The position numbers and the translations under genes were made by a program. Below are positions 5,073-53,482 of a stretch of 64,000 nucleotides of DNA, piece after piece. Location: positions 55,630-119,629 of the IMG/VR virus record IMGVR_UViG_3300018080_006015. One strand, 5' to 3'. This DNA comes from a virus. The first letter of the stretch is position 1, and every line of letters starts with the position of its first letter. Under the pieces are notes generated by a model. It ran no database searches, was not told the origin of the DNA, and worked only from the letters and a program-made list of their open reading frames with translations.

Positions 5073-7658
5073 ATGAGCGGCAAAGTAAATCTAAAACAAC
5101 TATTTCAATCTGATGCGGTTGGAGGCGGAATTATCCATTATGATGGTGATAATTGGGCGTCTTTTAATTCAATGTGCGTATTTGATCATATTGCCGGCCT
5201 CGGGGATGGTTATTGTGATTCAATTGTGTGGATATTTAATGATGATCAACAACCTGTATTAGGTCAGCTTGGGTCTCTAAGTGGTGATGGTTACGATTTT
5301 ATTATTCAAGCACAACCAACTACAGCTCCTGGATCACGGGGTGGTCATTTGGTTTTATCTCCTGGTGTTGGGGATGCATCTAATGGAGAGGTTATTTTTG
5401 TAGTTGGAGCAATTGGTGGACCAGCAGCTGTTGATATGGCCGTTTTAGGTCGTGATGTTGATGGTCCATATTTTGAATTTACAGAAGATGCTGATGTGTG
5501 GCTTGGTCATGGCATAAGAGAATCAGCTGGTAATGGAAGATTATTACATTTTGAAGCGCAAGAGTCTATTTCAGCTTTTTCACGTGGTGGAGAACTAAGG
5601 TTAAGTGGTGGTGTAGGTGAGGCAACCGCAAATTGGCACGGCCCTGTTACAATTTATAGTGGTTCAACTCAGGCGGCATCTTTTGATTATTATCATGCCG
5701 ATATAGATGTTAGGGTTGAGATTGAGCCGGCAGGTCTTGTTGCTACTGGAGAAAGTGCGGTAGATGTAGATTTAAACATTGCTGATGTTGATGATGTTTT
5801 TGCCGTAAGTGCCACATATACTCGTGGGACAACAATAAGTGGAGATAAATTATACGGATGTTACGCGGGTACACCTGGTGATTATTCTGCGGCTGGCGGT
5901 GATAGCAGAGAGGTGAGAGTTGCTGCCTATACAGCTAAAACGCCATTTAATGCTCAGTCAGCTGCAACAATATCAGCATTTTATATTGTTGGAGATTCTT
6001 CTGGTACAAATACTTATGATTATGGATTGTTCTGTCGTGATGAAACTCTTAGAATTGGCACAGAAGCTATTAATGTAAATAACGGCCCTGATATTGAGAT
6101 CATAGCGGGAGATGGAGAAGAAAGTGGAATTACTAATGGCGGTGATATTATTTTAATAGCCGGTGATGGTTATGGAGGTGGAAATGATGGTGTTGTTTAT
6201 ATTCCTGGAAAGCTGACGGTTGACGGTGCTTTAGATCCTATTTCTGTAATTATTCAAGACAAGGTGGCCGGTGATAGTGCATATTTACAAAGTTATGATG
6301 GTTACGCTGTGTCATTCGTTAATCCCGGTGATAATTTTGGCCGAATAAGATACAATGATTTAACGCAGGATTGGGAGTATTCAACGCCAAATACTGCTGG
6401 TTGGCTGTCTATAGGTACTGGTGGTGGTGCTGGAGAATGGACACAATCGGCTAATACTTTATATCCAACAACTGCCACAGTAGATACGTGGCAATTCCAA
6501 GAAGATCCGGCTTTGGGTGGAGTATTAATAACTCAAGAAGACAACACTTTGAGTAGTGGTTCGGGAGAGACTTTTACCATTAGGGCTCAGGCGGCTACTG
6601 GCGGTGGTGGTCGTGGTGGAACATTAGTGTTACAGCAGAGTGCTGGTGCATTTGTTGATGGCAGTGTAGATGTTTGGGATGCGGCTACGCCTACACCAAA
6701 TGTAATAATGAGATGGCTTGATGATGGCCCGTATTGTCATGTTCCAAAATTTGCATTTTTATCTAGCGTAGTTAATCCGACCATTATTCATGAAGCGATT
6801 GCTACTGCGGGGACCGATTTAACCATTCAGGCACAACCATCCGAAGACAATGCTGGTGGAGCATTAATTCTTAACGGTGGTGGTGGAAGTGTAGTTTCTG
6901 GCTCATTTGATGGCGGAAATGTTGAAATAAATGGTGGTGATGCAAATGGAACTGGTGGTAATGGTGGCGATATTCAGTTAACCCCAGGAGGAGGGGGATC
7001 GGCGAGTGGTGATGATGGTGAAGTAATAATGATTTTTGGCTCATCAATTGTAAATACAACCTTTACAACTGACGTTACTGGATATGTTGGCAGTATAGGA
7101 ATTGTATTTTCACAAGCATCTACTAATCCAATAATTACGCAAGATGGGGGTGGTTTAAGCGGCGATCCTGGAGATCCACTGACAATAAAGGCTCAAACAG
7201 GAGCTAGCGATGCACAAGGCGGAGAACTTAGGTTGTTTGGTGGAAATGGCACAACTACATTTGCTGGCGGTGATGTGGTAGTTCACGGCGGTACTTCTTC
7301 ACTTGGTTCTGGGGGAGAGGTACAATTACAAAGCGCAGCAGGTGCGAGCAGAATAAGAGTAGATGATAGTCATTCATATTTGGATGAAGATCTTGAGGTA
7401 ACAGATGATTACGATATTTATCCCACCACTGATGGACAAGGTAGTGTTGGAACAAATGCCAATAGGTTTGGGCTTATACGTGGAGTTACTGTTACTTCTG
7501 GTGACCTGGCGTTTGACGATAGAAAATGCCCAGTGTGTAATCAAGAGTTTCAGGTAGATGACGAGTTAGCATTAAAGGTTATCTGTGTTGAGGATGATGA
7601 TGTAGGACACAGAATTACAAAGACCGTACCAATGCATCAAACATGTTGTAAATCATAA
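5073..7658 (+). CDS. Modular fibre/adhesin protein with C-terminal zinc-ribbon-like motif, 861 aa
   Basis: The N-terminus (VNLKQLFQSDAVGGGIIHYD) matches that of the gene at 7717. Glycine-rich solenoid stretches follow (GGDIILIAGDGYGGGNDG; GGNVEINGGDANGTGGNGGD), with one GKLTVDGALDPISVII hinge at residue 379. The pattern PTIxxE...LTIxAQPS...GGxLxLxGG recurs several times, as in the giant paralogues. The C-terminus differs: from residue 819 it reads CPVCNQEF, then CVEDDDVGH and MHQTCC, a probable treble-clef or zinc-ribbon cluster (CxxC, C, H, CC). This is unusual for a fibre tip and might bind metal or a partner. Probably a structural appendage protein; trimerisation and surface location are inferred. 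Confidence 0.65.
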   Translation: MSGKVNLKQLFQSDAVGGGIIHYDGDNWASFNSMCVFDHIAGLGDGYCDSIVWIFNDDQQPVLGQLGSLSGDGYDFIIQAQPTTAPGSRGGHLVLSPGVGDASNGEVIFVVGAIGGPAAVDMAVLGRDVDGPYFEFTEDADVWLGHGIRESAGNGRLLHFEAQESISAFSRGGELRLSGGVGEATANWHGPVTIYSGSTQAASFDYYHADIDVRVEIEPAGLVATGESAVDVDLNIADVDDVFAVSATYTRGTTISGDKLYGCYAGTPGDYSAAGGDSREVRVAAYTAKTPFNAQSAATISAFYIVGDSSGTNTYDYGLFCRDETLRIGTEAINVNNGPDIEIIAGDGEESGITNGGDIILIAGDGYGGGNDGVVYIPGKLTVDGALDPISVIIQDKVAGDSAYLQSYDGYAVSFVNPGDNFGRIRYNDLTQDWEYSTPNTAGWLSIGTGGGAGEWTQSANTLYPTTATVDTWQFQEDPALGGVLITQEDNTLSSGSGETFTIRAQAATGGGGRGGTLVLQQSAGAFVDGSVDVWDAATPTPNVIMRWLDDGPYCHVPKFAFLSSVVNPTIIHEAIATAGTDLTIQAQPSEDNAGGALILNGGGGSVVSGSFDGGNVEINGGDANGTGGNGGDIQLTPGGGGSASGDDGEVIMIFGSSIVNTTFTTDVTGYVGSIGIVFSQASTNPIITQDGGGLSGDPGDPLTIKAQTGASDAQGGELRLFGGNGTTTFAGGDVVVHGGTSSLGSGGEVQLQSAAGASRIRVDDSHSYLDEDLEVTDDYDIYPTTDGQGSVGTNANRFGLIRGVTVTSGDLAFDDRKCPVCNQEFQVDDELALKVICVEDDDVGHRITKTVPMHQTCCKS

Positions 7659-23300: not shown

Positions 23301-25309
23301 ATGGCGGACTATCTGATACTGGTCCAAGTGAGGCTGAAACTGGTGGAGATGTTGTTTTATGTCAAGGAAATGGCTACTATACAGGAAAGATTAGATTTAC
23401 TCAGCCCGCGGCAGCTAGATTGGGGAATCCAGGCGCTGATATTATGGTTATTGATGGTACCACCATTGATATGACTGGTGCAACATCTATTTTAGGTCTT
23501 CCTGCTGGTGCAACGGCTTGGGAAGATGCTGGAAATACTCTTTATCCCGCAAATAATGAGGATGTTGTAATTGGTGGAACAGATGCTGATGGTTACAATT
23601 TAAGGGTTGTTGGAGATGCGAAATTTAATAGCGATGTATATATTGATGGTAAACTTACTGTTGATGGATATATTGATCCTATTGGAATTATCCTAGAAGA
23701 TTATACTGGCGATGGTGCTTTTATACAAATGGCTGACGGTCAAGCTGCAGATGTGAGTTCATCTGATGAGGGCCGGATAGTTTATAATGCTTCCAATAGT
23801 AGATTTGAAATGTCTGTAGATGGAAGTTCTTATCAAGAAATTCCAACAGGCTCTATAGAGTGGACTCGTTCAAGTGATGTTTTAGAACCATCTACATCAT
23901 CGGTAAATACATGGCGCTTTGATGTTAATGCTGGGGATGTTGTAATAACTCAAGAAGAAAATCCCGCATTTAGTTCTTCTGGAGCTATGCTTACAATTAA
24001 AGCTCAAGATGCATCTAGTGGTGGTAGTACCGGAGGAATGTTGGCATTAAAACAGGCTGCAGGATGGAGTGCCGGTGCGGCTGGGCCGATAGAAATACAA
24101 GATAGTTCGGGTGCAGAGTTATACACATTTGAAGCCACCGGTCAACTTACCATGGAAGATGATTATGATTTTGTTCCTGCTACAAGTACTCATGGTCAAA
24201 TAGGAACAGCATCTTCTAAGTTTAATAATGCTAATTTAAGCGCTTATGCCGCAATTGGTGCCTCAAATCTTGCTGATGCTGGCGCAGTTAGACTTTCTAA
24301 TAATACCGGCATATATGGTAGAAATTCTGGAAATTCCGCAAATATACTACTTGTTTCTACTAATGCTACTGATGATGTTGTTATCGGTGATTCTTCTACA
24401 TCTGTTGAGTTAGGTGCGGATTTACATTTCGATGATGATTTTGGACCAAATATTACTCAAAATGATAGAACAGGTAATGCTGCTTGGTCTATGGGCATTA
24501 AGGCTCAAAGCGTTACTGGTGGTGGAGATTACGCTGGTGGAAGTATTACAATTGAAGGTGGTAATGGTCAAGGGACTGGATCTGGCGGTGATGTTAATAT
24601 AACAACAGGAACACCCGGGGCAAGTGGAGCTGCTGGGACAATAGATTTTAGTATAGATTCTACAAAGGTGGCGTCATTCACTGAGGACGGGACTGGTGAA
24701 TATGTATTAGAGTTTAATAGATCTAACGATTCTATTATTAGACCTGCAGGAACTTCATCCGCTAATGGTGATGATATATACCTACAAGGAGGTACAACTA
24801 CATTTACAAATGCCGATGGCGGAAATGCTATTATTGATGGTGGTCGCGGAGATGGAACCGGAGATAATGGTTATGTTGAGTGTCAATCTGGTGGAACGCG
24901 CACTCTTCCAATTGGATCGCATACTAGACAAACATTAATTGCTAAACTTGTAAGTATTTCAGGTTCTAGTTGGGCAAATTTGGGAGACGAGGCTGGTGTC
25001 ATTGAGTTCGATCCTACCGACTTCCCATCAGCTAAACGAGTTGTTAAATTTGGAGCTGTGTTTAAGAGAGTAGGTGGTTCTGCTAGCGATATTGTTCACT
25101 TACGCTTACGAGAAGTTGGTGGAGCTACATTATCTGGTACGGAAATAACAACAACATCAGATTCTTTAACATATGTTGAGGTAACATTAGATGTTGGAAC
25201 AGATATCCAGAATAGTTCTCAAATATATCGTGTACAAGCTAAGGTAACTGGCGATATTACTGGAGAGGTAGAAAACGCAGAAATGCGTGTATCTTATGAA
25301 ACAAGTTAG
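20363..25309 (+). CDS. Large modular fibre protein with type-B C-terminal domain, 1648 aa
   Basis: The cap resembles the 19057 gene (MGFTKNNTDGTIIHETGVVS). Hinge modules occur at residues 269, 719 and 1096, with solenoid stretches between. Segments such as TTQDIRLYHNSASHHLEFNS resemble shaft repeats in other tail fibres. The last 125 residues (RQTLIAKLVSISGSSWANLG, IEFDPTDFPSAKRVVKFGAV, LHLREVGG-like, EMRVSYETS) form a domain closely related to the C-terminus of the 45871 gene but not to type A. GGAGACAATAGGTA precedes the ATG. Probably a structural appendage; target unknown. Confidence 0.72.
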   Translation: MGFTKNNTDGTIIHETGVVSFPEKISVGTDVIRSDETVHIDGYLFIDSAASDACVEMGDGYFADVSLPNEGRIRYNIVTQQFEVSTDGNPYVGISTGPQAGPWNEGAGVVYPDYAAWDVAIGDSIMFDTEKLRVVGDIAIQGGIVIEDSVVDPAIYQYETAGAGNTLYISAQETTTNNQTAGDLQLLGGDAPVLAGGSTGGNVILIPGVGDTPGYTSIQTSIGGELFRLGSDGVINFSTSATSITASGNPTFNFGTSLSTFGGDVDISGKLTVDGYIDPVAMIIESAGNDAFLEMGAGQLAGRSQLGEGRIRYNDLSHQFELSTNNDPYVAISTGGSTSPWTELGGQVYTNNSSWNVSLGISTQYDQEKLRVYGESIFETADFDDVPVTIKAGPVQNEVLLELVTDTENTIFEIDGYGGVFWGEDVPAPILTQETNAGPGNATNLTIQAQSMESGGLGDGGFLILKGGLGDGVGGAAGAVIVENVDAGAVPFTIQGSPGQSAGYFEISDGYNIIFDVADDISVGCGDIVPINAPGTLSNLGISGGGDEWGSIYLSDDQEIVFGTTQDIRLYHNSASHHLEFNSNVVSETNDAFQFYATVGDANFISIASLTVTRSAPLTGGNVFTVWGGGVDGYVGDSSDSAIVVYGALPLNTPSDANIIGFACLPFGIDYDIGLLLPDNVPIHLGSDISSGSQLWHDGYGVVTNSNTWSFGGDVDISGKLTVDGYLDPPAVIIEDKVFGDGAFFEMKDGSGAGISSSDEGRIRYNQAEQRWEMSANANPYEPIGGASTSPWSENAGVIYPTTHATDDVVIGTNAMVGTERFYVYGDSAFGASATFPTVGSIRLARGGNNGLYSIDSGSANVQLLQFDLSDQVVLGGTGPTGPADVVIQAGEVWLSGGINYSTSKFEMQDDELYWADNIGTPPGGPYVYQEDNTTSIARRDFTIIAQTDRITDGTSGWLKLAAGGDTGYGGGIGGDVVIYGGLSDTGPSEAETGGDVVLCQGNGYYTGKIRFTQPAAARLGNPGADIMVIDGTTIDMTGATSILGLPAGATAWEDAGNTLYPANNEDVVIGGTDADGYNLRVVGDAKFNSDVYIDGKLTVDGYIDPIGIILEDYTGDGAFIQMADGQAADVSSSDEGRIVYNASNSRFEMSVDGSSYQEIPTGSIEWTRSSDVLEPSTSSVNTWRFDVNAGDVVITQEENPAFSSSGAMLTIKAQDASSGGSTGGMLALKQAAGWSAGAAGPIEIQDSSGAELYTFEATGQLTMEDDYDFVPATSTHGQIGTASSKFNNANLSAYAAIGASNLADAGAVRLSNNTGIYGRNSGNSANILLVSTNATDDVVIGDSSTSVELGADLHFDDDFGPNITQNDRTGNAAWSMGIKAQSVTGGGDYAGGSITIEGGNGQGTGSGGDVNITTGTPGASGAAGTIDFSIDSTKVASFTEDGTGEYVLEFNRSNDSIIRPAGTSSANGDDIYLQGGTTTFTNADGGNAIIDGGRGDGTGDNGYVECQSGGTRTLPIGSHTRQTLIAKLVSISGSSWANLGDEAGVIEFDPTDFPSAKRVVKFGAVFKRVGGSASDIVHLRLREVGGATLSGTEITTTSDSLTYVEVTLDVGTDIQNSSQIYRVQAKVTGDITGEVENAEMRVSYETS

Positions 25310-26137: not shown

Positions 26138-26144
26138 GAAATAT

Positions 26145-26960: not shown

Positions 26961-26973
26961 TTTTGAGGAAATA

Positions 26974-42900: not shown

Positions 42901-43888
42901 AAACGATGCCCAACCACCATCCGTTATACCTCCTGTTGTAGGTGGTTTCTGTTTGTTGGTCGGCAAGATAATTATTGACAAGGACGACACATCTTTCACA
43001 GCAGTGCTAACGCCATTTACAACTTCCTTTAGCGGATCTATTGTACAAAATCACAATGATCTGGCAGGTATACAGGGCGGTACAGGCAGCGAGTATTACC
43101 ATTTGACTGCCGCAGAATATTCTGATCTCGGATTATGGACAGATGGCGGAACGGTATTGTACCCATCTGATAGTGAGACCGTAGTTATTGGCGATACAAC
43201 AATGTCTGGAGCGGAAACCCTTAGAGTTGTTGGTGATGCGTTAGTTGAAGGTGACACTACTATTACAGGTAAACTCACTGTAGATGGGTATATTGACCCC
43301 GTTGGTATTACTATAGAAGATGGTGCTGGCAATGGCGCATTCTTTGATGTTGGACCAGGTGATTCTGTCGATTTTAGTCCTGGAGGAATGGGCAGGCTTC
43401 GATATAATTCTGCTACTGATAAATTTGAAGTATCAACAAATGGTGGTAATTTTAGTGAAATAGCTATTGGAAACGCAAATGTTATATCAGGGTTAACTAC
43501 GACAGGACTATCAGAGGGTGATTTTGGTTATGTTTCCGACGCAGATATCGTATCTAAAACAGATTCAAAAACAGAAGCATCATCTTATTCTATAGGAGCT
43601 AACGAAGGAATTGTTGGAACTATAACTATTTCTGGTGTAATTGAAAATGCAAAATTTACAACAACAGGTGGTGAGCCGGCCAATGGTGCTCCAGTTTATT
43701 TGGCATCCTCAGATGAAGAAGCAAATGCAACCGGCAAATTAACAGCAACCGCACCAACCGGACAAGGTAGCGGAGCCGGTGCAGGAAATTTTGTTGCTGA
43801 AGTTGGTATTTGTATAAGCAATGGTAATTACGCGGGATCTAAAACATGTAAAATTCTTTTGCAACAAAAAAGAGTTGTTAGTGTATGA
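27929..43888 (+). CDS. Giant modular fibre/adhesin protein, about 5319 aa
   Basis: A single 15.96-kb frame, among the longest for any phage protein. The cap (MANGFIYNRSIPEIRLIDGY, CYFAQAEEHAG, PGYVLTSDAFGIVRWAP) is a paralogue of the 9300 cap. Nine hinge modules occur at residues 908, 1534, 1917, 2360, 2757, 3470, 4233, 4590 and 5114, each preceded by a solenoid and often by WNFGTGxATFEGDVQID and followed by GRIxYNxxTxxFxxSxxGG. Residues about 4748-5060 carry a different, non-repetitive domain (DGTVAVTAGTGIIKTTDSRY, FIDWAAN, SETGTRNFALTSGVFW, NNRYGVHWVYVDV, VVYGQGNYLLAQA, HNDLAGIQGGTGSEYYHL) of a type seen in other phage fibres near the receptor-binding end. The last 140 residues are type C, shared with the 44110 gene. 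No stop or frameshift interrupts it. Confidence 0.78.
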   Translation: MANGFIYNRSIPEIRLIDGYDQNDVVIISGDRDSGLNLGVTADLDVPGPPPISFITSFGPGVVNTGVVSATMDRPAPMVDSSSGLVCYFAQAEEHAGDIDTTLIGGFAAIEPVRSPFGHAHAAAFVASGNPVTGDDWDSTLFCLDTNCVITTITGFDGYGRYFLVQTGDGYEQSGGDAIFALGDSYGSTPDTYGGNLLVRPGLSEVGFPAGDHGKVVLEARASDQQLLAVRGFAGQTRDLVTFTDETATTYSGITADGRYFLIDGAMPGYVLTSDAFGIVRWAPPTGDGYDGYSYWSLNGTDIHPIDVAYNVAIGDIATSGGGEVFYVSGRSFMDGGSLPPFSDALLVEANCDNGNVSVIEASIQRINPLGPGEIVSAIKVGAENVLGDHPSSAMAGILFDAPTINDSNPPSGAIVVFGDSASGNYYQGTVVALDHDLNLSCDRIFSGPGDGPNVAVFAASGVSNGVGGVISMQTGSADAAGAPPGTALAGGALLFQTGDSSSSAAAIDGPLMYFLCGNASSTNGDPATGGGVQFNMGYGDGIGGRTGEFIINDPVMNKYVRVDFDGYSTRLNGGLDPNLSNAQFEIHADTNTTNGPGASLALFASNATYDFGPSGFDGGNIWLHTGDGYQIGGSGGSGGNVNILCGSAAAGGSGFGGGVIVSLGESDDYDRHGRFTVESTVGGPYCSTYSSSPDTIDIVGFAQSTFRLSSETIGDGVPGTSFFITASNGNASLPGGYVGGDLSLVAGHGAVNGLFDADGGGLYLFGGDATSGNIGADGGSIYFHPGEGAGAGFGGAVVMQAAEGHIGEFVRMQTTDGYPVFSAGVEGWVEIGSATDPTDLGDFSSGIDGYARLFYDQSEGAINLFSGNGVATAVLSANVNGGFLGLGTVGPFGSEQLSVVGDAYIGGKLTVVGALDPISVSILDTIGAGDGAYYEAYDGSGVAPVGPGDSFGRIRYNNLSQSWEASTPITGGWLPIGGGGPSGDGYWSLSDGYILYPQNTNYDVVIGGTDVTGDGEKLRVQGLTLLEGQPGQEDAVIVSGWCDFDDATVVNVEMQRFSGLGPYEAVHGYKTEVTSIPSDHVDSLTSAFTADVPEIGNPAAWSSAFTLFGNDSSFDSYTFALLSVDQNLNIVAARSPSGGLHSPHIQLATTTPMDGYAGDIIINPGSSNAANPNSAYNGSNLDIITGNGSASGFGYAADGGHVEVELGGGASGDGTTPAMGGGFYVKLGAGDGVGALGGVFHIANSPTTNNNMLELTENDGTTKIAVLGSPGYFNLGQIYVASGAGDLAAGDGYNYLYYDASEMRLMMTDLLGNQQITLEADTNGGYIGVGGGATIPAGPEQLRVANNAVIEGALAVNASGMAGNETLRVDGVAGQPMATFIRPGSTCASSQIAIDVQARGDILAGDTCQVVRILGGIGANNAGSTGIALDVNAESDGSWTAGASGIGLKLSGGKVDSDGTFIVEHILQPATIGGNPSYVDTILKVEKAGGTLVDNYFEIVDLTTAASPIFSVSETLFNCTLDAEFNADVQIDGKLTVDGYIDPIGIIIESLTNDAFLELGDGQNAVVSGPGTGRLIYNDSTQAFMMSVDGGPYRIIGTGGGGGDGYWERDESGFLYPVFSGDDIALGSDPASIGVIRLNNNEGIYWNNTLGTGDIRGLFVDSNNDVLIGSTGGSQRDVVLNVPTGNELRMQINSSDMVEVASNYIILNPRQLVFDSSTSSPIIYQDQDITPGVTGQNLTVQAQNCPGGGGAAGGSLYLEPGNGNIAGSVVITDAITPIITVNVNGVEIGDPLFRFDKSISTPTIYHEDSDGYTSSLTVRAQGTTLNSGTGGNLNILGGSAAFGGGSTGGSVVIQAGAGDTEGSVLIRESAGTTWLSFAGGNINFSNGTTAVTASSNPTFNFGSGLSTFEGDVQIDGKLTVDGYLDPVAVIIDSATNDAFLEFNAGENAALSPSDAGRIIYDNTSKSFMASVDGGAYVALGSGTGDGYWGRDVTGFLYPIVPTDGVQIGGELEMDNNIILNKSMVGAGSPSHLIELIGETSVADRSVYIYNNSWAAVDNYGIRLDDDSNNLCAEFGFGAGLGSIWRFNNASGGMRLHTESGVEIWALSQAGSWNIQNLHGIQFTQPGFSGGASANAFRVIGGAHVELPASTERSDISFELGRDVEFAAGALAQQRAVIVEAPTYKFDGASTLTTAATFAIEGAPSEGTNATITNSYALWVQSGDSSFGGDIYFDSSVLSPTIQQNNTTVGDGENLRVAAQSSSAIGSAGGNLTLAAGYGTDGYGGHLGLYAGSSAVSGIGGNVYLTPGEGTTVGQVIIREPFGGTSIVTFDDTSVESPGNPTWNFGSSLATFEGDVQIDGKLTVDGYLDPIAVIIESATDDAFLQLSAGENADISSANECRLIYDSVGARLLVSANGGPYSPIDGYAGSSPWTYIGGVLYPDNYITDAVVIGDNAVVGSESLRVVGNTSLLGNVVIEEGTTNPSILQLTKTSGAAQTLSISAQSSNDSSGGPLTLNAGSGYTTGGDINVNAGDGYTWGNGGAIRLRGGDATGILGSGGHVYIQGGDSVGGTQGYIITNSSQVVFKDFSGTTFASISNDNEALYFSGGSSPTIQHLATNTFTNPLSIIGQNSSTEDGGNVVISGGDATGATDKSGGDVELYGGSGNGIGVAGIVHLFGSGHILTVDGYDRVGVSDVVTIDVAKDRSDAFRLMEDTNLYMQVFTDIGSESIVFGGTTNPDYEFFGTGTATFEGDVEIGGKLTVDGYIDPVAVIIESATNDAYLGLSAGQNASRSAADEGKIIYNAVSQKFQLSANGNAFVDLATGGSSEWNRTGDVLTPATASVNYWEFDSTALDPVITQADEDGYDVTAQTLTIKGQDVTGNLSVGGAVEIWGGAAALDSGDGGDVIIHGGNAPSAVGGDVILRQSGGFNTGAIRIQNVASDDILSFSSNQISGLANNPTWLFGTGSANFGADLTVVGELNAGSVDVSDYVEIGGSPADSGAIRLENADVINFRENGGLGNIRALTVDVNDDIFVGSNSTYQRDVVLHVPTGNNIRMQYGPGITTAARFVTGANAVAMDLTDGSAAGVGNLNEGRLRYNNVTETFQVSTNHGSYEDILTGAFPEVSKWTKDGYVLYPNDYENEIVVIGDTSPFTDEILSVHGKQVIDAGALGDNDFGLSVVGYLDGTQTALIWSHMVRDGYWGVNGLAGAIGADVATQIGDDPDSNVAAFVATPPAIYSTDPNTYAFLAMSGGGTGYETTLGALEQDLLIRTDVPVGAPDGYGYDIILETGPGTAASGAYRGGEITLRAGNAVAAVGSRSDGASIFVETGDAASNGGGNADGGDFEVLLGDGAGGGSTGSMVVRAGLGNDDYVVFENNSGARSLTAGGLGWAYVGSASDPSAPGDFAAGYQNSTRMFFSRDLETFQLFDGTNANTFAIEIDSGYVGIGSGATGGPSGTELLQVDGDAYITGKLTVDGYLDPIGVIIESPTFDAFLELGVGDGASLAPPDTARLIYDQYNNKLRVSYSGAPYQDVGGDGYGASLWTQVGDNMWPAAGTSANVIVGDFSQDGYEKFKVVGDLGQSVMYVERPESDITDDKETSVTFNLTPNNIVSGGEVGAVHIQAGARGDIGSDTFAVGLAIDSVWEGNMASDSVASAMIVECGTRSTNAEYTAGAIFVLPEEIEGGYDSGLSDMLRLLNEGGTLGNFINCEMPGEISAFKVTGDGYVGIGQANPTTQLDVVGKTILQDLQITGSLTSDGYVLTSDSLGNAVWAPAGGGSYWQRDPVEGIVYPSVLTDSIGAPADIISVNGGMLYWRDSTDTLDIEVLTLDASDNIIVGQNTTDFNNIALSVGNSGVIEMQTGGLARYTVESNGNLTMEGDFDFVPDGDGQGEIGTTGSRFASSHFSSYMAVGVGAGLPSVGAVRLQNNLAIEWSSAAINDVQVLSLDNSDQINVGSLDADLAGIIYNTPSSTFHSLRINNASILELASAFVEVSPADLRFDNDVNNPIFRQFDDTNDSATGWLFTIHAQDMTSNVDTTGGDLLIRAGNANTGGTGTGGTLHLRAGNSTTEGSVIIEQSDGTGMMSFASDTNTVTAPSNPTWNFGTGVATFGNEVNATSFDATNFIEIGSSPATVGALRMTNNHSVYWRNEQGTSDIRTLFVDGYNNITLGDDLGDVNDVVIYAALNKEIHLDVNNDTRFSVSETGVQCYENATFLEDILVVGDADFEGDVQIDGKLTVDGYIDPIGITIEDHYGNGAYMEIGDGTAAPLSSPGMCRVIYDSTAQELLASFGGNAYEVIGTGGSSDGYWSYDSVTGTLYPKLDWTNDTLVLGDNEMAGAEMMRVTGAVRFESHMELGTILPGNGAIRMESDSAIVARNFGDSADINLISNEREGATDQCNIIIGNNDATALNDMQFNLPTGGAYQSLIAGTRYMRLQESELLLGASGSGYNLNFDAGVSDPSIFQITSPDNGITGNELRVRAQSVSGTVSHGGLLVLGGGDADDGHGGGAILFGGDGTGGGAYNGGTVTLRPGQGGSNNGTISIEDATETAQIVVDDDEVDFVGSAVVSTGNPTWNFGTGAATFEGDVQIDGKLTVDGYLDPIAVIIESATTDAFLELGAGENSSPSLAGTGRIRYNSSTDKFEMSENGGSYGEIPTGSVEWNRTSDTLSPSTSSVNEIEFGATAGDISITQANNTTGNGSTITISGQTSGGGNGDGGNVVIEGGVPHGSGAPGYVDLDIQHMAGSTYSTLKDAINQQFTPTVITGGNITDNGDGTVAVTAGTGIIKTTDSRYGETIFIDWAANNSLSLTDESINFIYCDYNGGSPQLSVETVDTNLWNQTRIRVGMVWRDGTVAHIWVANSEFNSLGGQCSRRFWEDQGAHRTSGMIISETGTRNFALTSGVFWAGFSKTTTPSFDMSGADTFNYYYTSDSGTSWTKVTGQTQINNTQYNDITAGLSTLSNNRYGVHWVYVDVAGDEVHVVYGQGNYLLAQANDAQPPSVIPPVVGGFCLLVGKIIIDKDDTSFTAVLTPFTTSFSGSIVQNHNDLAGIQGGTGSEYYHLTAAEYSDLGLWTDGGTVLYPSDSETVVIGDTTMSGAETLRVVGDALVEGDTTITGKLTVDGYIDPVGITIEDGAGNGAFFDVGPGDSVDFSPGGMGRLRYNSATDKFEVSTNGGNFSEIAIGNANVISGLTTTGLSEGDFGYVSDADIVSKTDSKTEASSYSIGANEGIVGTITISGVIENAKFTTTGGEPANGAPVYLASSDEEANATGKLTATAPTGQGSGAGAGNFVAEVGICISNGNYAGSKTCKILLQQKRVVSV

Positions 43889-44109: not shown

Positions 44110-45819
44110 ATGACTGACTATCGTCCAATTTATATTAGTGGCGGGAAAGTTATTCAACTTTCTACATCAGACGGTATTGAAGCTGGAACTCAGATTTCAG
44201 CCTCAAGCGGATCTGACTTAACATTAACTGCTAATGCTGCAATTTCTATAGCATCTGGCATAAATTTAGCATCAGCAGGTGGCGCTGCTGATTTTGACTT
44301 TTCTGGCTCTAGTGGTACGTTTAAGACATCTACTGGAGATGTTACTGTTGGAGGTGCTGCAACGTTCACATCTTCAATGGCTATGACAGGATCTAATATT
44401 GATCTAGATCCTACTGGTACTTTTGCATTAGATATGGATGCCTCTCAAACTGTAACAATTACTGTTGCTGATGATTTGGCTAATTCCTTTCTATTACAAG
44501 AAGGCGGAAATGCGTACTTTAGCATCACCACAACCAATGATTCTGAGGCAATAAACATTGGTAATGCTACAACTAATCCCGATTTAAGTCAATTAGGAAC
44601 TGGTCAAGTAACATTTGCTGGTAATGTTGATGCTACCAACGGTTTGGATGTCACCACAGCCGCTTTGACCGCAGCTGCTGGATTGACTGTTAGTGGTGAT
44701 GCAATTACCATGACAGGATCTAATATCGATTTAGATCCAACTGGTACTTTTGCTTTAGATATGGATGCGGCACAAACTGCAACAATTACTGTTGCTGATG
44801 ATTTGGCTGATGCATTCCTATTACAAGAAGGTGCAAATGCATATATAGATGTTACCACAACTACTGACTCAGAAGCAATAAACTTAGGTAATGCCTCAAC
44901 TAATCCCGATTTAAGTCAATTAGGAACTGGTCAAGTAACATTTGCTGGTAATGTTGATGCTACTAATGGTTTAGATGTTACTACAGCTGCTTTGACTGCA
45001 GCCGCTGGTTTAACTATAAGTGGCGATGCAATTACCATGACAGGATCTAATATCGATTTGGATCCTACTGGTACTTTTGCCTTGGATATGGACGCCTCTC
45101 AAACCGTAACAATTACTGTTGCGGACAATTTGGGCGATGCACTTCTAGTACAAGAAGGTGGCAATGCGTATATTGATATTACCACAACAGATTCTTCTGA
45201 AAAGGTTGAGTTTGGTAATGCCACAAGCAATCCCGATTATGAGTTTTTAGGTAGTGGGCTTGTTGATTTGGCAAATGGTACTGCAGAAATTCCTGGCGGC
45301 ACCAGCTTGACAGTTGGCGCTGTTCAATGTACGGCCGGTGTAACTGGTACCAATTTGAATACATTAACTGATGGTTCGAATGCCGATGCATTACATACAC
45401 ATAGTGGTCTTTCTAGTAGCCAAGTTGTTGTTGCTGGTTTAACAACTACCGGATTAGCTGATGGTGATTTTGGTTATGTAAGCGCTAATGGCACTATGAC
45501 TAAAACTGATGCAACTACAGAAGCAAAATCTTATATGTTTGGCGCTAATGAAGGCACTGCTAGCAGCATGACTGTTGGTGGTGTTGTAGAAAACGCAAAG
45601 TTTACAACTGACGGTGGTTCTCCATCAGCTGGTGATCCTGTATATCTAGCCTTAGGAACCGCAGATACTGGAACTGGAGCTGGCAAGTTAACAGCCACAG
45701 CCCCAACAACCGCAGGTCAATATGTGGCAGAGGTTGGAATTTGTTTGGATAATTCTAATTATGACGCCAGCAAAACCTGCGAGGTATTGTTAAGACCCAA
45801 AGTTGTTGTTGCTCTATAA
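44110..45819 (+). CDS. Fibre-like protein with tandem 109-residue repeats and type-C C-terminal domain, 569 aa
   Basis: The N-terminus (MTDYRPIYISGGKVIQLSTS) is short and unlike other caps. Residues about 92-390 contain three tandem repeats with an exact 327-bp step: MTGSNIDLDPTGTFALDMDA, QTVTITVADDL, NAYIDVTTTxxSEAINxGNA, NPDLSQLGTGQVTFAGNVDA. The last 130 residues (VVAGLTTTGLADGDFGYVSA, GANEGTASSMTVGGVVENAK, GDPVYLALG, YVAEVGICLDNS) form the type-C domain shared with the giant gene upstream. This domain resembles small beta domains found on phage particle proteins. It has strong ribosome sites, so it may be made in high amount. Confidence 0.7.
   Translation: MTDYRPIYISGGKVIQLSTSDGIEAGTQISASSGSDLTLTANAAISIASGINLASAGGAADFDFSGSSGTFKTSTGDVTVGGAATFTSSMAMTGSNIDLDPTGTFALDMDASQTVTITVADDLANSFLLQEGGNAYFSITTTNDSEAINIGNATTNPDLSQLGTGQVTFAGNVDATNGLDVTTAALTAAAGLTVSGDAITMTGSNIDLDPTGTFALDMDAAQTATITVADDLADAFLLQEGANAYIDVTTTTDSEAINLGNASTNPDLSQLGTGQVTFAGNVDATNGLDVTTAALTAAAGLTISGDAITMTGSNIDLDPTGTFALDMDASQTVTITVADNLGDALLVQEGGNAYIDITTTDSSEKVEFGNATSNPDYEFLGSGLVDLANGTAEIPGGTSLTVGAVQCTAGVTGTNLNTLTDGSNADALHTHSGLSSSQVVVAGLTTTGLADGDFGYVSANGTMTKTDATTEAKSYMFGANEGTASSMTVGGVVENAKFTTDGGSPSAGDPVYLALGTADTGTGAGKLTATAPTTAGQYVAEVGICLDNSNYDASKTCEVLLRPKVVVAL
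44383..45290 (+). repeat. Three tandem repeats with 327-bp period
   Basis: Units start at 44383, 44710 and 45037 (each at the MTGSNIDLDP codon block), exactly 327 bp (109 codons) apart. Long DNA stretches are identical between unit 1 and unit 2, including CAATTAGGAACTGGTCAAGT. The third unit diverges in its second half (VEFGNATSNPDYEFLGSGL). The constant period and DNA identity point to recent tandem duplication kept in frame. Confidence 0.9.
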
Positions 45820-45870
45820 TTAATGGTAAAGTGTAGGATTCAAATAGAGTTATAAAACGGAGAAAATACA

Positions 45871-48800
45871 TTGGCACAACGCAGATATCTCACCATTGTT
45901 ACTGGCGAACACGAACTTCACAATGAATCTTCTGACTCTCTTAGAATAGATTCGATTGGAATTGGGACCGATCCATCGGCGAATTCTGGAGAGTTTTTAG
46001 CTACTCAAGGTGTTGTTGGTAATAGTGCTTTGTCTGGAAATGGTGAGATTTTGCGTGTCAGTGGTGGCGCATTATTTGATGGCGTGGACTTAACTGTTCC
46101 CGCCATATATGCTACGGCGGAAGTGGCAGACGCTAATTTAACAGCAGTAATAAATATAGCAACTACAAGAGATGGTGCAACTACAGCTGGCCATATGTGG
46201 TCTGCTATGTCCGCTTCTCCACAAGGACATGCCAGTGATGACAGCACTGCGTATTTGGGGGCTTATGTTGCTTCTCCCATAACCAAGAACTCTAGTGCCG
46301 CCCTATTTTCTGGGTTTGGTGTAGTAAATGTTGGTGGAGACGCGGATTATGACTATTCCCTCGTCTCTCTTGGCGGCGATTTGAACTTAGCTGCTTTTAA
46401 TACGGCAGGGGACACGAATGGTCCTTCTGTTTCTATAGAAGCTGCGGATGCTGTTGCAAGCGGAAACGGCGACGGCGGAAGCATCGCTCTTACTCCCGGA
46501 GCAAAAGACGGCACAGGGGCCGACGGCTCTGTGCTCATTGGCAACCCCAGTACCAATGCAGCCGCCTTGGACTTCGATGCCGGATCGGCATGCGACAATG
46601 GTCCGTCTGGTGGCATGCGACTGCGCTACAACCAAGGAACCAACAAGGGGCAGCTGTCGCTTAACGGTGCGTCGTTTGTCGACATCGCTACTGGCTCTAT
46701 TCCGACACTTGAATGGACGCGCTCGTCTACTGTGCTCTATCCGTCGGAGTCTACAGTAAACAAGTGGCAGTTTGATACGTCTGTTTCCGGGGCTACGATT
46801 TGCATTGACAGCAACAGCAGTACAGCTGCCAATCTCACTATTCACGCACAGGACACCTCCTCTGGCGAAGGCGGCGATATAATCATCGCCTCCGGTGCTG
46901 GCACAACGGGGACGCCGAAAATTGGGCTGTATGTGGACAATGGCATCACTGCTCTTGTCGATTTTTACACAAGCTCCCAGGTTGCCACACAACAGTTCAG
47001 CAATTTATACACAGGTGGTGTGCTCATCGAGCAAGCCCAGAAAGCCGACGACGGCGCCGACATGTCCATCAAGGCGCAAACGTCAACTAGCGGCACTGGT
47101 GGAGATCTGAACTTGTATGCTGGTGGGGCAACAACCACCGCGGGCGATGTAAACGTCTATTCTGGCAATGGATCAACAGACGGACAGATTGTCCTACACA
47201 GCGCAAGCAGTGAAATATGGCGTGCGTACAGAAGCTCTAGCAACCCATATTTGAAGGGAACCGGCGTTTCTCACATAGAGTCTACAGACAGTCTGCACCT
47301 AGACGTCAGTGGAAATTATCTGTACCTGAACGTTCCGTTTTATGCCGTATTCGGCAATGACAGCAGCAACCCTGCACTAACCGTCAACGTCGACTATGAC
47401 GGAGCAACCGGCCTGGAGTTCGCCAATACTGTAACCAGTGCAAAGATCGACTTCACCGATAAGTCAAGTGGTAATGGTGTCGATCTGACACTCGCCGGTC
47501 AGACAACGTCTTCCGGAGAAGGTGGGGATGTGGTCATTGGCGCGGGCAGCGGAACGAGCGGAACGCCGAAAGTTACGTTGTGCGGGGATGAGGGTGTGAC
47601 CCAGTGGGCCAGCTTCTACAACTTCCATCTTGTGTTCAATACGCAGCTTGGAGGCTCACCTGCAGCTGGCGGAATTGGCTATGATGGTTCGTCGTTCGAG
47701 ATGACGGACGCAACCGGGACATTCAATCCAAGGAGCACCGGGCTATTTACGCAGGACACAGGATTTGCGTACCTGACCACTACAACTGACATTCTGGTTG
47801 CTGGTGCTTCTTCGGTTGGCGCTGACACGACAGGGCTGATTCTTCGCGGCCATGGCGCGCTTGCGCTAGGCACCGCCACGGGAACCGCCTTGCCCGGCTC
47901 CGGTCTTGTAAGACTGCCACAGGGGGAAAATCTTGGCGTCACGTTCAGGATGTCTGGTTACGATCTTCAGGGCATCCACCTGAACGACGGGGACGATGTC
48001 GTAATCGGCTCTGCGACAGGAAGCACAAGAGCGGACTACATCCAGCTGTGGCCAGGCGTCGGCCTAGACATCAACATCGGTACCGATGACATCATCGACA
48101 TCTCATCAACGGCCATTACCTGGGATGATGCTGTCAATACACCGACCATCACCCACGGGGCGTTGACGACTGGTGTTGCAACACATCTGACCATTGAGGC
48201 TCAGTCTAACTCTGGCGACGGTGGCTCGTACGATGCTGGAGATCTGTTGCTCAACGCTGGCAGTCAAACTAGCTCCGGCGCGGCAGGTGGAGACGGTGGT
48301 AACGTTGTCATCACCGCGGGTGACAGTACCAAGCAATCGGCCGGCTCGATTACGCTAGAAACACCGGACGCCGCATCTGGCTGGGGCGGCAAGCCTGTAT
48401 ATATCCGCCCAGGCAGTGTTACTCATACCTCGTTCGAGCGCGGCGGATCTAGCAAGAACTCGTTCACCACCGGATCAGCTCAGACCACATACGCATTTGA
48501 GCACGGTGCTACCAACGGACTGTTTGAGTTTACAACACAGGGAACCACCGACTACACCGAGTTTAAGACGACGACTCTACGCGTTTCCACCAATGCCGGA
48601 ACAGAGCATACGCGAATATATGCCAGTGGAACAAACAGCGTAATAGAATCCACGGGATCTAGCGGCGAAATACAGCTGTTTACGAACTCCACTCAGCATT
48701 ACACCGTCCGAAACGACGGCTCGATAAAGATGGAGACGGACTCCACCTTCTGGCCACCAGCCGACGGCAACGGCTACCTCGGTAGCGACAGCGTGTCGTG

Positions 48801-49653
48801 GAACACTTTCTATGTTAAGAACATAGCGAACGCATACGACATCACATTCGACTCCTCGCATACCACGCCAACGATCAAACACGAAGACACGAACTCTGGG
48901 GCTGGAGACCCTCTGGAGGTTTGGGCACAGACAACCTCGGATTCGGAAGTGGGGGGTACGCTAGAGCTTCACGGTGGAGATGGGGGTAGCAGTGACGGTC
49001 CGGTTGAGTTCTACAACGGCTCAACACTGATAGCGTCTACGGCGAAGATTGATGAAAATGGGTACGGCTTCCTCTCTGCCCCAGGATACGCGATTGTTGT
49101 CAAGGCTACCGATTCGACTTCCGCCGCAGGTAAAAGTGCTGTTCTAGAGGGAGGTGCTGGTGATGGAGATAGTAATGCTGGCGGCAATGTACTCCTGAAG
49201 GCGGCTCAAGGCGATCCAGATGGGCATGTTAAGGCGTATGCTGGTACGGCGGAGACGTTGCTGCTTAGCCACCAGGTTTGCAAAGCCCCGCTAATTAAAA
49301 GCGAAGAGGCCACGACTGTGTGGACGCAGGTTGGCGATGACAACCCGCTTATCGAGTTCAACCCCGCAGACTATCCGCCTGGTCATAGAAAGATCACATT
49401 TCGCGCAATCATGGACAGCGACAGCTCGCTCTATACATACGCTAGGCTGTACGAGGTGGGCGTTGGGGCGGTTACGGGGTCCGAGGTGAAATCGAATTCT
49501 AGCGCGTGGACTGAGGTCAGCGTCGAAATCGAAGCGCCGGCTGACATCCCGAACTCAAGCGCGCTTTACACGATGCAGATCAAAAAAGACTCTGGCGTTA
49601 CGACGGGGCGCGTGCGCGGCGCCGAGCTTCGTGTGCGCTACGAAGTATCATAG
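45871..49653 (+). CDS. Fibre protein with type-B C-terminal domain and internal GC shift, 1260 aa
   Basis: Starts at TTG 45871, with CGGAG 8 bp upstream; no better ATG is near. The N-terminal 190 residues resemble the giant proteins in style (SIGIGTDPSANSGEFLATQG; MWSAMSASPQG). Solenoid stretches of GGD/GGN type follow, with repeated TIHAQDTSSGEGGDIIIASG-like segments, but the GKLTVDG hinge is absent. The last 125 residues (TVWTQVGDDNPLIEFNPADY, RGAELRVRYEVS) match the C-terminus of the 20363 gene. From about base 46440 the codons become GC-rich (GCC, GAC, ATC, CTG) although the frame continues. The 3' nine-tenths therefore probably came from a GC-richer relative by recombination. Confidence 0.7.
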   Translation: MAQRRYLTIVTGEHELHNESSDSLRIDSIGIGTDPSANSGEFLATQGVVGNSALSGNGEILRVSGGALFDGVDLTVPAIYATAEVADANLTAVINIATTRDGATTAGHMWSAMSASPQGHASDDSTAYLGAYVASPITKNSSAALFSGFGVVNVGGDADYDYSLVSLGGDLNLAAFNTAGDTNGPSVSIEAADAVASGNGDGGSIALTPGAKDGTGADGSVLIGNPSTNAAALDFDAGSACDNGPSGGMRLRYNQGTNKGQLSLNGASFVDIATGSIPTLEWTRSSTVLYPSESTVNKWQFDTSVSGATICIDSNSSTAANLTIHAQDTSSGEGGDIIIASGAGTTGTPKIGLYVDNGITALVDFYTSSQVATQQFSNLYTGGVLIEQAQKADDGADMSIKAQTSTSGTGGDLNLYAGGATTTAGDVNVYSGNGSTDGQIVLHSASSEIWRAYRSSSNPYLKGTGVSHIESTDSLHLDVSGNYLYLNVPFYAVFGNDSSNPALTVNVDYDGATGLEFANTVTSAKIDFTDKSSGNGVDLTLAGQTTSSGEGGDVVIGAGSGTSGTPKVTLCGDEGVTQWASFYNFHLVFNTQLGGSPAAGGIGYDGSSFEMTDATGTFNPRSTGLFTQDTGFAYLTTTTDILVAGASSVGADTTGLILRGHGALALGTATGTALPGSGLVRLPQGENLGVTFRMSGYDLQGIHLNDGDDVVIGSATGSTRADYIQLWPGVGLDINIGTDDIIDISSTAITWDDAVNTPTITHGALTTGVATHLTIEAQSNSGDGGSYDAGDLLLNAGSQTSSGAAGGDGGNVVITAGDSTKQSAGSITLETPDAASGWGGKPVYIRPGSVTHTSFERGGSSKNSFTTGSAQTTYAFEHGATNGLFEFTTQGTTDYTEFKTTTLRVSTNAGTEHTRIYASGTNSVIESTGSSGEIQLFTNSTQHYTVRNDGSIKMETDSTFWPPADGNGYLGSDSVSWNTFYVKNIANAYDITFDSSHTTPTIKHEDTNSGAGDPLEVWAQTTSDSEVGGTLELHGGDGGSSDGPVEFYNGSTLIASTAKIDENGYGFLSAPGYAIVVKATDSTSAAGKSAVLEGGAGDGDSNAGGNVLLKAAQGDPDGHVKAYAGTAETLLLSHQVCKAPLIKSEEATTVWTQVGDDNPLIEFNPADYPPGHRKITFRAIMDSDSSLYTYARLYEVGVGAVTGSEVKSNSSAWTEVSVEIEAPADIPNSSALYTMQIKKDSGVTTGRVRGAELRVRYEVS

Positions 49654-49980
49654 AAAGGGAGACGATGACCGAAACCCTGTACTGTTCCGAGTGCAGCGCT
49701 ACGGCAGAAGCGATAATTAAGGCCAGGATGAGTTCTGCTCCACCGGCTAGGGGTCCAGCTGTCAACGTTACGTCAGAGTTGAAAGACTTGGATTCTGCTG
49801 CTTACGCTGCTATAGAGACTTGGGGTATACCAGGTGCTCTGTTAATAGCCGTTAGCGTTTTTGCCTTCCTTCTTTACAAGAAGTACTGCGAAGTACAAGA
49901 AGCCCGCATTAATGAGCTGAAAGAACTTAATGATAAGACCACCAAGCTCATTGGCGGGTTTAAAGAGACAGTGGTGGAAA
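46440..49980. other. GC-rich island within an AT-rich genome
   Basis: Hand counts of single 60-base lines give 25/60 G+C at 46381, 38/60 at 46441 and 37/60 at 47881, against 23/60 at 33541 in the giant gene. The change is abrupt at the left side, inside a codon-continuous gene, and fades on the right through the small membrane-protein gene at 49665. By 50041 the sequence is AT-rich again. No insertion sequence or direct repeat marks the edges. Confidence 0.85.
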
Positions 49981-50018
49981 TGATCCGCTCTGAGGAAATA
50001 TTAACTTTAACATGTTAA
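49665..50018 (+). CDS. Small single-TM membrane protein, holin-like, 117 aa
   Basis: Residues about 54-71 (GIPGALLIAVSVFAFLLY) form one transmembrane helix. They are followed by a charged coiled-coil-like helix (KKYCEVQEARINELKELNDK, TTKLIGGFKETVVEM). The N-terminal 50 residues are polar with a CSEC pair. This order (TM then charged amphipathic helix) is that of BhlA/UviB-type holins and some phage spanin-like proteins. Its place between the fibre genes and the envelope-enzyme region fits a lysis role, but the call is from topology only. GAAAGGGAG lies before the ATG. Confidence 0.5.
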   Translation: MTETLYCSECSATAEAIIKARMSSAPPARGPAVNVTSELKDLDSAAYAAIETWGIPGALLIAVSVFAFLLYKKYCEVQEARINELKELNDKTTKLIGGFKETVVEMIRSEEILTLTC

Positions 50019-50025
50019 GGGCCAT

Positions 50026-50382
50026 ATGTTAAGAGGAATTTTGATTTTATTGGGAATATTTTTATTTACATCTTGTACGCTAAACATGAATATTGACGAA
50101 ATGGTTATAACAAATGAAATGTGTCAAGATCTTATTGAAAAATTCGGAGAGGATGGAGACGATGATTATGTGCCGGTTGACTATGGGTGTAGTGGTTATG
50201 CGTTAGATGAAGAAAATAACGAATGTCTAACAGAATGTTTTGAACAAGAAGATTGTGATCTTGAACATTATTGTGATTATGTAACCAGTACATGCGAATT
50301 GAAAGGAATTGGCCCCTGTGAGGGAGACGATCAGTGTCGTTCTGGATTGTGTTTATGTGATATGTGTATGAGTTTATTTTAA
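50026..50382 (+). CDS. Cysteine-rich lipoprotein, 118 aa
   Basis: The N-terminus MLRGILILLGIFLFTSC is a short lipoprotein signal with the lipid-acceptor Cys17; Phe at the -3 position is a less usual lipobox. The mature part is very acidic and holds twelve further cysteines, in spacing such as NECLTECFEQEDCD, YCDYVTSTCE and GPCEGDDQCRSGLCLCDMC. Such disulfide-rich repeats resemble eukaryote-like or myxobacterial cysteine-rich modules. It would be exported and anchored in a membrane. A role in superinfection exclusion, spanin function or envelope binding is possible; none is shown by sequence. It ends 4 bp into the convergent metalloprotease gene. Confidence 0.65.
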   Translation: MLRGILILLGIFLFTSCTLNMNIDEMVITNEMCQDLIEKFGEDGDDDYVPVDYGCSGYALDEENNECLTECFEQEDCDLEHYCDYVTSTCELKGIGPCEGDDQCRSGLCLCDMCMSLF

Positions 50383-51035
50383 TATCCGCGCAATTCATAA
50401 TCACGCAAAGCCGTCCATATTACATAGCGCATATCATTTTCTGTAACTGTCATCTTTTTAGCCGAACAATATTGGTGCATAAGTGAGAATTGTTGCCATG
50501 AGTGTGGTATACCTAACAAATGCCCTATTTCATGCATAATTACGGCCTGTAATATATTTTTATTTTTCAATCTATCAGTAACAATTAGCGCAACTCTGGG
50601 AACATATGTCATATAAGCATAACCCCAAATAGTTGCCTTTTCGTATTCATCTATTTGTTGTATTTTTCCATCTGTAGATAATCCTTTTGAAATATAGAAC
50701 CTACTACAAAATTCTTCATCGGAATGTTGTTCTCTTCTATCGTATCCTTCATGTAATGCAACGGCGGATTCATCTACAATTCTAAGTCTTACCAGCCCAT
50801 TAGTTAAAAGCTCCCAAGCCTTTAAAGCTTTTTTTATAATTGTTTTTTCGTCTTTTGTAAAATGTCTATCTATATAAATTTTACGTATAATAATTGGTGG
50901 TAATGGATACTTAGATATTGTTTTATATCCGATTTTTGTTGATAAGCTTTGAAGCGCATAAGCTCCAGCACAAATTGCCAAAACATTTGAAATAACAATG
51001 ATGATCAATAATAAAAGCACTCTATAAATATACAA
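50379..51035 (-). CDS. Membrane-anchored or secreted matrixin-type metzincin protease, 218 aa
   Basis: Residues 168-178 read HEIGHLLGIPH, the full HExxHxxGxxH zinc motif of metzincins, and Met186 in FSLMHQY fits the Met-turn, so family M10-like (matrixin) is the best match. A hydrophobic N-terminus (RVLLLLIIIVISNVLAICAG) is a signal anchor or uncleaved signal. The frame opens with TTG at 51035; a GTG five codons later is an alternative, and neither has a good ribosome site. It is the only minus-strand gene between 4488 and 57518. It might cut host surface proteins or process fibre proteins; both are inferences. Confidence 0.75.
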   Translation of the reverse strand: MYIYRVLLLLIIIVISNVLAICAGAYALQSLSTKIGYKTISKYPLPPIIIRKIYIDRHFTKDEKTIIKKALKAWELLTNGLVRLRIVDESAVALHEGYDRREQHSDEEFCSRFYISKGLSTDGKIQQIDEYEKATIWGYAYMTYVPRVALIVTDRLKNKNILQAVIMHEIGHLLGIPHSWQQFSLMHQYCSAKKMTVTENDMRYVIWTALRDYELRGY

Positions 51036-52276: not shown

Positions 52277-53482
52277 ATGGTTTTTGATGTTGGTATTATA
52301 GGTTGCGGCGTTGCAGGATCTTTTGCTGCTGTTAAAATTGCCGAGAAATATAAAAAATGTTCTTGTGTGGTATTTGATATCGGTAGACCTCCACAAAAGC
52401 GCCGCCGACAACTAGAGGGGTTTCTAGGTTGTTTTCCTACTGGCAATGGAAAGCTTTATCCTAATGATATTGATTGTTTATTTGATTTGATGGATGGAAG
52501 AAAAGTTATTCCGGCATACAAATGGGTTATGAAATATTTTAAAGAAGTTAACCCAATGAAATTAAATAAAGATTCTAAACCTAAACTTTCGGCAATTAAA
52601 AGAATAAGACAAGGAGGTTTTGAATTACAGCAAAATAACTATTTTCAGTGGAAGCCAGAAAGTGTTCATAAGTTATCTAAATTATTTTCAGAAAAATATG
52701 ATAAGGCTAAAAATATAACGTTTTGTTTTGATAATGAGGTTAAATCATTTAGTAAATATAGAAAAAAATTTATTATATCCACAGAAAATGGAGAATTTAC
52801 TTGTAATAAACTTATCTTATGTGTTGGAAGAAGTGGTTGGAGGTGGGTTACAAATTTATACAAGCAATTTGGCATTGTAGCAGATGATGATTGGGCCACA
52901 TATGGTATTAGATTGGAAATGCCGGCCAACGCTTTGCGGGAATTTAATAAATCCCATTGTATTTTATATAAAGACAATTTAGAAATTGGACCATTTAATT
53001 GGGCAGGCACTATTATTCCAGAAGATCATTCTGATTTAGTCATATCAGCATTTAGATCTAATGAAGACCGTTGGAGGTCAGAAAAAGTGTCATTTTCTTT
53101 GCTAAAATCTATTTATCATCAAAATGATGGATGTGCACAGGCTGACAGAATAGGTAAATTATCGTTTTTATTATCAAATGATAGAGTAAGCAGAGAAAAG
53201 GTTTCATCTTTTCTTAACCGTCATAGTTTGTTAAGTTTATTGCCTGAATATAGTTGGTTATATGATACATTATTTGAAATAGAAAAAATAATTCCCAACA
53301 TATGTACAAAGGGTTATTATCATATTCCACATATTTCGCCTATGCCCGCTAAAATAAGATTAGGTGATAATTTAGAATCGGAAATAGAAAATATGTTTGT
53401 TGCAGGCGAAGCTGCTGGAATATATGGAATTATGGGAGCGGCTGTTTCTGGCGTGATAGCTGCAAATAGTGCTTGTGGGTGA
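52277..53482 (+). CDS. FAD-dependent oxidoreductase, COG2509-like
   Basis: The N-terminus FDVGIIGCGVAGSFAA holds the dinucleotide-binding GxGxxG (residues 9-14), followed by the acidic end of strand 2 (VVFDIG). The middle has LILCVGRSGWRWVTNLYKQF and DWATYGIRLEMP, which match uncharacterised FAD-dependent dehydrogenases of the COG2509 type. The C-terminal FAD motif NMFVAGEAAGIYGIMGAAVS is intact (about 374-393). At 401 residues it is shorter than many bacterial members. Its substrate is not known. Flavoproteins of this class appear in bacteria and some large phages; a role in redox or nucleotide modification in the infected cell is a guess. AGGTGG precedes ATG 52277. Confidence 0.78.
   Translation: MVFDVGIIGCGVAGSFAAVKIAEKYKKCSCVVFDIGRPPQKRRRQLEGFLGCFPTGNGKLYPNDIDCLFDLMDGRKVIPAYKWVMKYFKEVNPMKLNKDSKPKLSAIKRIRQGGFELQQNNYFQWKPESVHKLSKLFSEKYDKAKNITFCFDNEVKSFSKYRKKFIISTENGEFTCNKLILCVGRSGWRWVTNLYKQFGIVADDDWATYGIRLEMPANALREFNKSHCILYKDNLEIGPFNWAGTIIPEDHSDLVISAFRSNEDRWRSEKVSFSLLKSIYHQNDGCAQADRIGKLSFLLSNDRVSREKVSSFLNRHSLLSLLPEYSWLYDTLFEIEKIIPNICTKGYYHIPHISPMPAKIRLGDNLESEIENMFVAGEAAGIYGIMGAAVSGVIAANSACG

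Follow-up and report, generated by a model that had tools for sequence, protein, structure and literature searches.

A sharp GC3 step inside a fibre-like gene of an AT-rich phage and its probable origin by in-frame recombination with a GC-rich phage

The distal part of ORF 45871-49653, a fibre-like gene of an AT-rich phage, was very probably replaced in frame by recombination with a GC-rich phage carrying homologous fibres. The gene lies in the window, i.e., the whole stretch of 64,000 nucleotides analysed in this study, which is taken from the IMG/VR virus record IMGVR_UViG_3300018080_006015. Its codons 1-196 (45871..46458, plus strand, TTG start, GC3 0.31) form an AT-rich, native-looking N-terminal part homologous to the AT-rich fibre ORFs 5073-7658 and 27929-43888, and codons 197-1260 (46459..49653, plus strand, GC3 0.59) form a GC-rich C-terminal part of repeat modules and a distal tip, with module homology to AT-rich fibre ORFs. 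The AT-rich phage, which has a contractile-tail-type baseplate, would have kept the N-terminal 196 codons of one fibre gene and acquired the remaining approximately 1,060 codons (repeat shaft modules and tip) together with the small membrane-protein-like ORF behind it; this DNA, 3.5 kb altogether, would come from a GC-rich phage whose homologous fibre gene followed the same module grammar. The left join would lie inside a Gly-rich module common to both genes, because of which the frame and the module register would be kept, and the right join would fall where the small ORF ends. The expected effect would be an altered cell-surface target, because the N-terminus of a fibre anchors to the virion and its distal end binds the receptor; for this phage, we infer the recombination route, the anchoring and the receptor binding alike. 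The swapping of distal fibre parts is already known, and the present case is a clear and recurrent example of it in a large-phage family that is little studied. Mosaics in the tail fibres of phage P2, pointing to horizontal exchange of host-recognition genes, were reportedly described by Haggard-Ljungquist and co-workers in 1992. The trace of fibre-tip exchange is a clean one, falling within one gene, and it recurs at one locus in a family whose G+C varies widely. Because the step shows where the retained part meets the exchanged one even when no donor sequence is at hand, it could be used to map such parts in other uncultured phages.

In the concatenated codons of four neighbouring genes (44110-50382), the maximum-likelihood GC3 segment was 46,459-49,994, with a GC3 of 0.579 inside as compared to 0.243 outside (LR 241), far from the even GC3 on both sides that the earlier note had named as evidence against a recombination. 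This island is 3.5 kb long. Change-point likelihood (within 2 lnL) placed the left junction at 46339..46468 (best 46459, plus strand), inside the Gly-rich repeat module ...NGPSVSIEAADAVASGNGDGGSIALTPG..., in register with ORF 5073-7658, and the right junction at 49985..50003 (best 49994, plus strand), just before the stop of ORF 49665-50018. ORF 45871-49653 alone has a single change point at codon 196, where GC3 rises from 0.31 to 0.59 with an LR of 51.5, and the maximum LR in 2,000 codon shuffles was 20.8. The abrupt AT-to-GC shift that had been reported inside the reading frame is thus confirmed, the underlying G+C counts (25/60 in the line at 46381 and 38/60 in the line at 46441) were exact on recounting, and the reported persistence of high G+C through the gene end into the next gene, followed by a fall, agrees with the closing of the segment at 49,994. 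The step had been placed at 46440; its best site lies about 20 bases further downstream, and GC3 is slightly raised (0.30-0.43) over about 200 bases ahead of it, which may be due to chance or to a nested exchange.

The GC3 of the whole ORFs was 0.545 for 45871-49653 and 0.466 for 49665-50018, and that of the remaining 94 ORFs of the 119,629-base record was 0.17-0.34 (ORFs of 60 aa or longer, taken from separate stretches of the record), so that a two-sided island is unique among 96 ORFs. In a tetranucleotide scan, 46401-49600 was the most distant segment of the record, by a narrow margin; both this and the GC3 analysis had been suggested in the earlier note. The frame stays open across the step and the repeat style is barely altered, as the earlier note had held, and GC1, GC2 and the amino-acid composition differ little as well. 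Local selection on codon usage, e.g., for the translation or folding of a long fibre, could raise GC3 in place without foreign DNA, and such selection would fit the near constancy of amino-acid composition between the island and the rest while synonymous codons differ. But the change is a step and not a gradient, the GC skew and CpG change too (CpG rho 1.09 v 0.74), the island reaches almost to the end of a second ORF unrelated to the first, and no such shift is seen in the phage's other fibre genes, even the longer ones, all of which makes this origin scarcely credible. A GC3 step of 3.5 kb is probably also not what a diversity-generating retroelement would make.

The small GC-rich ORF carried with the island (49665..50018, plus strand, 117 aa) is GC-rich over its codons 1-110, and by inspection it has one predicted membrane helix and a charged C-terminus. 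Its motif GPAVNVTSEL(K/R)xL was also found in fibre-like ORFs of two large IMG/VR contigs (L010:7923-9398, L010:9497-10300 and L011:7500-8720), and the L010 stretch with this motif is GC-rich (60%). At the right border of the island, an 8-base direct repeat, ATGTTAAG, is present at 50012-50019 and 50026-50033, i.e., where the small ORF ends and the next one begins; it may be chance or micro-homology.

ORF 45871-49653 matched no Pfam or PHROG profile and no curated fibre family, and it is called fibre-like because of its repeat architecture, its multiplicity and its place in a record that also carries a set of baseplate genes. It shares glycine-rich modules such as GRIRYN...EWTRSSxVLYPSxSxVNxWxFD with the giant neighbouring ORFs. 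The paralogue at 5073..7658 (plus strand), which is AT-rich throughout, is colinear across the left junction (aa 144-506 v aa 29-327, E 5.8e-14), with identities of 60/168 (36%) to the left and 51/131 (39%) to the right of the junction in one colinear alignment. Since this alignment stays in register, the foreign segment replaces the homologous part of a gene and is not a random fusion. The present-day paralogue itself (36-40% protein identity) is too diverged at the DNA level to have served as a substrate for recombination. The distal tip domain (49096..49650, plus strand) is homologous to the AT-rich tip of ORF 20363-25309 (24734..25306, plus strand), with 34% identity over 185 aa and 37% over the last 129 aa; both the homology of the two tips and the existence of homologues of both compositions, as proposed earlier, are therefore borne out. 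In 30 records, the tip profile was found only in the present phage, apart from a weak match in a small ORF of record G024 that is not GC-rich. An AlphaFold model of the tip gave Foldseek matches to jelly-roll or lectin-like structures, i.e., BC2L-C lectin (TM about 0.6), CBM6 and the phi812 spike, which serve only as a lead because the pLDDT of the model was 54; by analogy, the tip may bind a receptor. Upstream of the gene, 25328-27786 is occupied by three paralogous ORFs in tandem (269-271 aa), which share a conserved N-terminus rich in Cys and Trp; the first of them has no PHROG match.

The same locus was compared among relatives. The fibre locus of the present phage (4488-49653) extends over about 45 kb and includes a 5,319-aa ORF (27929-43888), whereas the syntenic place in G001 (IMGVR_UViG_3300037808_002131) holds about 5 kb of other, shorter fibre genes, flanked by homologues of window ORFs 3961 and 4488 and of the metalloprotease and FAD ORFs described below. 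In the 459-kb record G006 (IMGVR_UViG_3300028920_000022), the region between these flanks holds module fibres and, after them, three related genes. The first (L132:762-1685) is all AT-rich, and the second (L132:2273-4837) and the third (L132:4834-7386) contain LamG/ConA-like lectin domains and switch in composition, with GC3 rising from 0.19 to 0.69 after codon 43 and from 0.28 to 0.62 after codon 347 (LR 98), respectively. In their alignment, the first 300 columns are present in AT-rich and GC-rich versions, and the AT-rich gene ends in ...NKQGKID beside the composition switch of the third gene. The 361-kb relative G038 encodes a 304-aa gene in which 40 AT-rich codons are followed by GC-rich ones (GC3 0.15 to 0.48), two genes upstream of the homologue of window ORF 51509. 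In an unguided scan of 762 ORFs of at least 100 codons (785 kb, 25 family records), the best GC3-rich segment of each ORF was scored relative to its own record; the scan is not a whole-genome survey because the 785 kb came for the most part from the surroundings of fibre loci, and the first scanned gene of G006 was listed twice, as two stretches overlap. Scores above 50 were confined to four genes (274, 242, 111 and 53; the next were 40 and 38), namely the island ORF, the two tandem LamG genes of G006 and the G038 gene, all at the same syntenic fibre locus, and in 4/4 of them the GC-rich segment begins at an internal codon and extends to the C-terminus. In all cases, the retained part is N-terminal and the foreign part C-terminal. 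The AT-to-GC fibre chimeras of G006 and G038 are independent events that share both polarity and locus with the island gene. A high-GC3 ORF of record G031 (L134:3193-3519) was set aside, since by inspection it is probably a wrong-frame reading.

These relatives also bear on whether the island is an assembly chimera, in which contigs of an AT-rich and a GC-rich phage from the same metagenome were joined at both island ends. The virus record is a single contig, and assemblers may switch between strains at hypervariable loci, both of which would favour such an artefact. But it would take two joins within 3.5 kb, the second leading back into the same syntenic phage sequence, and the left one would have to keep the frame and the module register with the paralogue. 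An exact overlap would also be needed; no 16-mer of the junction zones recurs in the other family DNA compared, and the longest near-matches to the junctions in other parts of the window measure 12-19 bases. Given all this, and given that two further records, from different metagenomes, repeat the polarity at this locus, a chimera of this kind is quite unlikely.

The donor was sought in several collections. The tblastn search of 50,697 phage records with the whole ORF or its GC-rich part returned no match, so that the close matches in GC-rich phages for which the earlier note had proposed a search were not found there. The tblastn searches of INPHARED with both tips, the first quarter of the giant fibre ORF, the N-terminus of the L010 fibre and the GC-rich segments of G006 and G038 also gave no match, and the only match of all queries was a weak one of the small ORF 49665-50018 (E 0.09). 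Peptide and DNA pattern scans of IMG/VR with the ORF, the tips, the modules and an AT-rich fibre revealed no relative of the island, and short motif matches were obtained for the small ORF alone (L010 and L011). Pattern scans of a genome collection, for which the baseplate and the C-terminal segments of G006 were the queries and in which the sole fibre query was that of G006 and not the island, gave no match.

The family itself contains GC-rich members. The baseplate-J-like protein encoded upstream (L002:703-3942) matches PHROG 6, a baseplate wedge subunit, and, over 27% of its length, shares 32% identity with gp188 of Bacillus phage G; its profile detected 71 IMG/VR loci (41-65% identity), and the contigs that carry them reach 473 kb. 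The GC3 of the family baseplate genes ranges from 0.07 to 0.55, and the fibre module is present in 20/50 records searched. The record IMGVR_UViG_3300035698_012649 (L018/L162) has a GC3 of 0.42-0.60 over ten ORFs and falls in the same baseplate-tree clade as the present phage (34 members, support 0.93). Its codon-usage distance to the island is 0.089; the two halves of the island are 0.085 apart, and the island and the AT-rich fibres 0.227. No fibre module was found in its 17.6-kb contig. Composition and clade together indicate that GC-rich potential donors exist in the same family, and the donor could be such a member. The GC-rich part might instead derive from the DNA of a bacterial host, or from some phage or prophage that does not belong to the family; the phage collections gave no donor, and the 30-aa motif of the small ORF recurs in fibre-like ORFs on two large contigs that fall outside the family as defined by its baseplate. 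This source is nevertheless rather unlikely, as the island has the module grammar and the homologous tip of the phage's own AT-rich fibres, and this grammar is found across the family and was absent from INPHARED phages at the thresholds used. An in-frame recombination with a GC-richer phage, as the earlier note had proposed, therefore remains the best-supported reading in view of the colinear AT-rich paralogue, the GC-rich family members and the same-locus chimeras in two relatives.

Features of distal fibre swaps are present in this locus: behind a native N-terminal part, a foreign distal part follows in the same open frame from the GC3 step onward, and G001, G006 and G038 have alternative distal parts at the same locus. 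At the distal tail-fibre locus of T-even phages (gp37/gp38), recombination between conserved motifs is described in the part of PMC3797505 that discusses Tetart et al. 1998, and fibritin genes carry alien C-terminal domains behind conserved N-termini (PMC3797505). As in the present gene, the N-terminal part is conserved and the distal part is exchanged in frame at a fibre locus, and the join here may likewise lie in a shared repeat module; unlike there, the exchange here is visible as a base-composition step, and no sequence homology to gp37/gp38 was established. Homologous recombination at the conserved N-terminal domains of Ackermannviridae tailspike genes gives chimeric spikes with new receptor-binding domains (PMC11414711), which likewise join a native N-terminus to a foreign C-terminus and are encoded by tandem paralogous genes, as in G006. 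The proteins are different, however, and the chimera and the new host were demonstrated there in the laboratory (PMC11414711) and can only be surmised here. The polarity of such swaps, with the N-terminus anchoring to the virion and the C-terminus meeting the receptor, is given in the relevant passages of PMC11414711 and PMC3797505 and in work cited there, and by analogy the retained-N, foreign-C arrangement observed here would be this known polarity. Distantly related Alteromonas phages have host-recognition modules in common (PMC10579305), which likewise reflect horizontal exchange of host-recognition genes, but whole modules move there and the break lies inside one gene here. It was proposed in PMC2266997 that unusual GC3 regions of phages can stem from transfer between phages with hosts of different GC3; the regions in those genome landscapes are gene-scale, in contrast to the within-gene step of the present phage. 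A more far-reaching and rather doubtful reading is that the family fibre locus is a dedicated exchange site, possibly with a specific recombination system, at which distal parts pass between differently composed phages, always onto retained AT-rich N-termini. If it were true, host range would evolve across phages that differ in genome composition and perhaps also in host.

The flanks of the fibre locus are native and AT-rich. Directly after it lies a matrixin-like metalloprotease ORF (50379..51035, minus strand; Pfam PF00413, E 2e-10), which is 36% identical to L008:8365-9012 and syntenic with G001; the corresponding place in G006 holds a trypsin-like protease (L132:7448-8131). The FAD-dependent-oxidoreductase-like ORF (52277..53482, plus strand) served as a synteny anchor, with homologues in 24 family records, nearly all of them 38-60% identical. 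At the start of the window, ORF 127-1896 bears an intein/LAGLIDADG element, and the matching ORFs of G015 (L149:3476-6247 and 10618-15498) have clear GC3 breaks; these were not counted as fibre swaps, as the genes match the intein-bearing ORF. The small basic ORF 3961-4296 has a GC3 of 0.28 in the present phage, and its homologues L122:7750-8106, L140:9898-10227 and L146:2550-2858 have 0.45-0.50.
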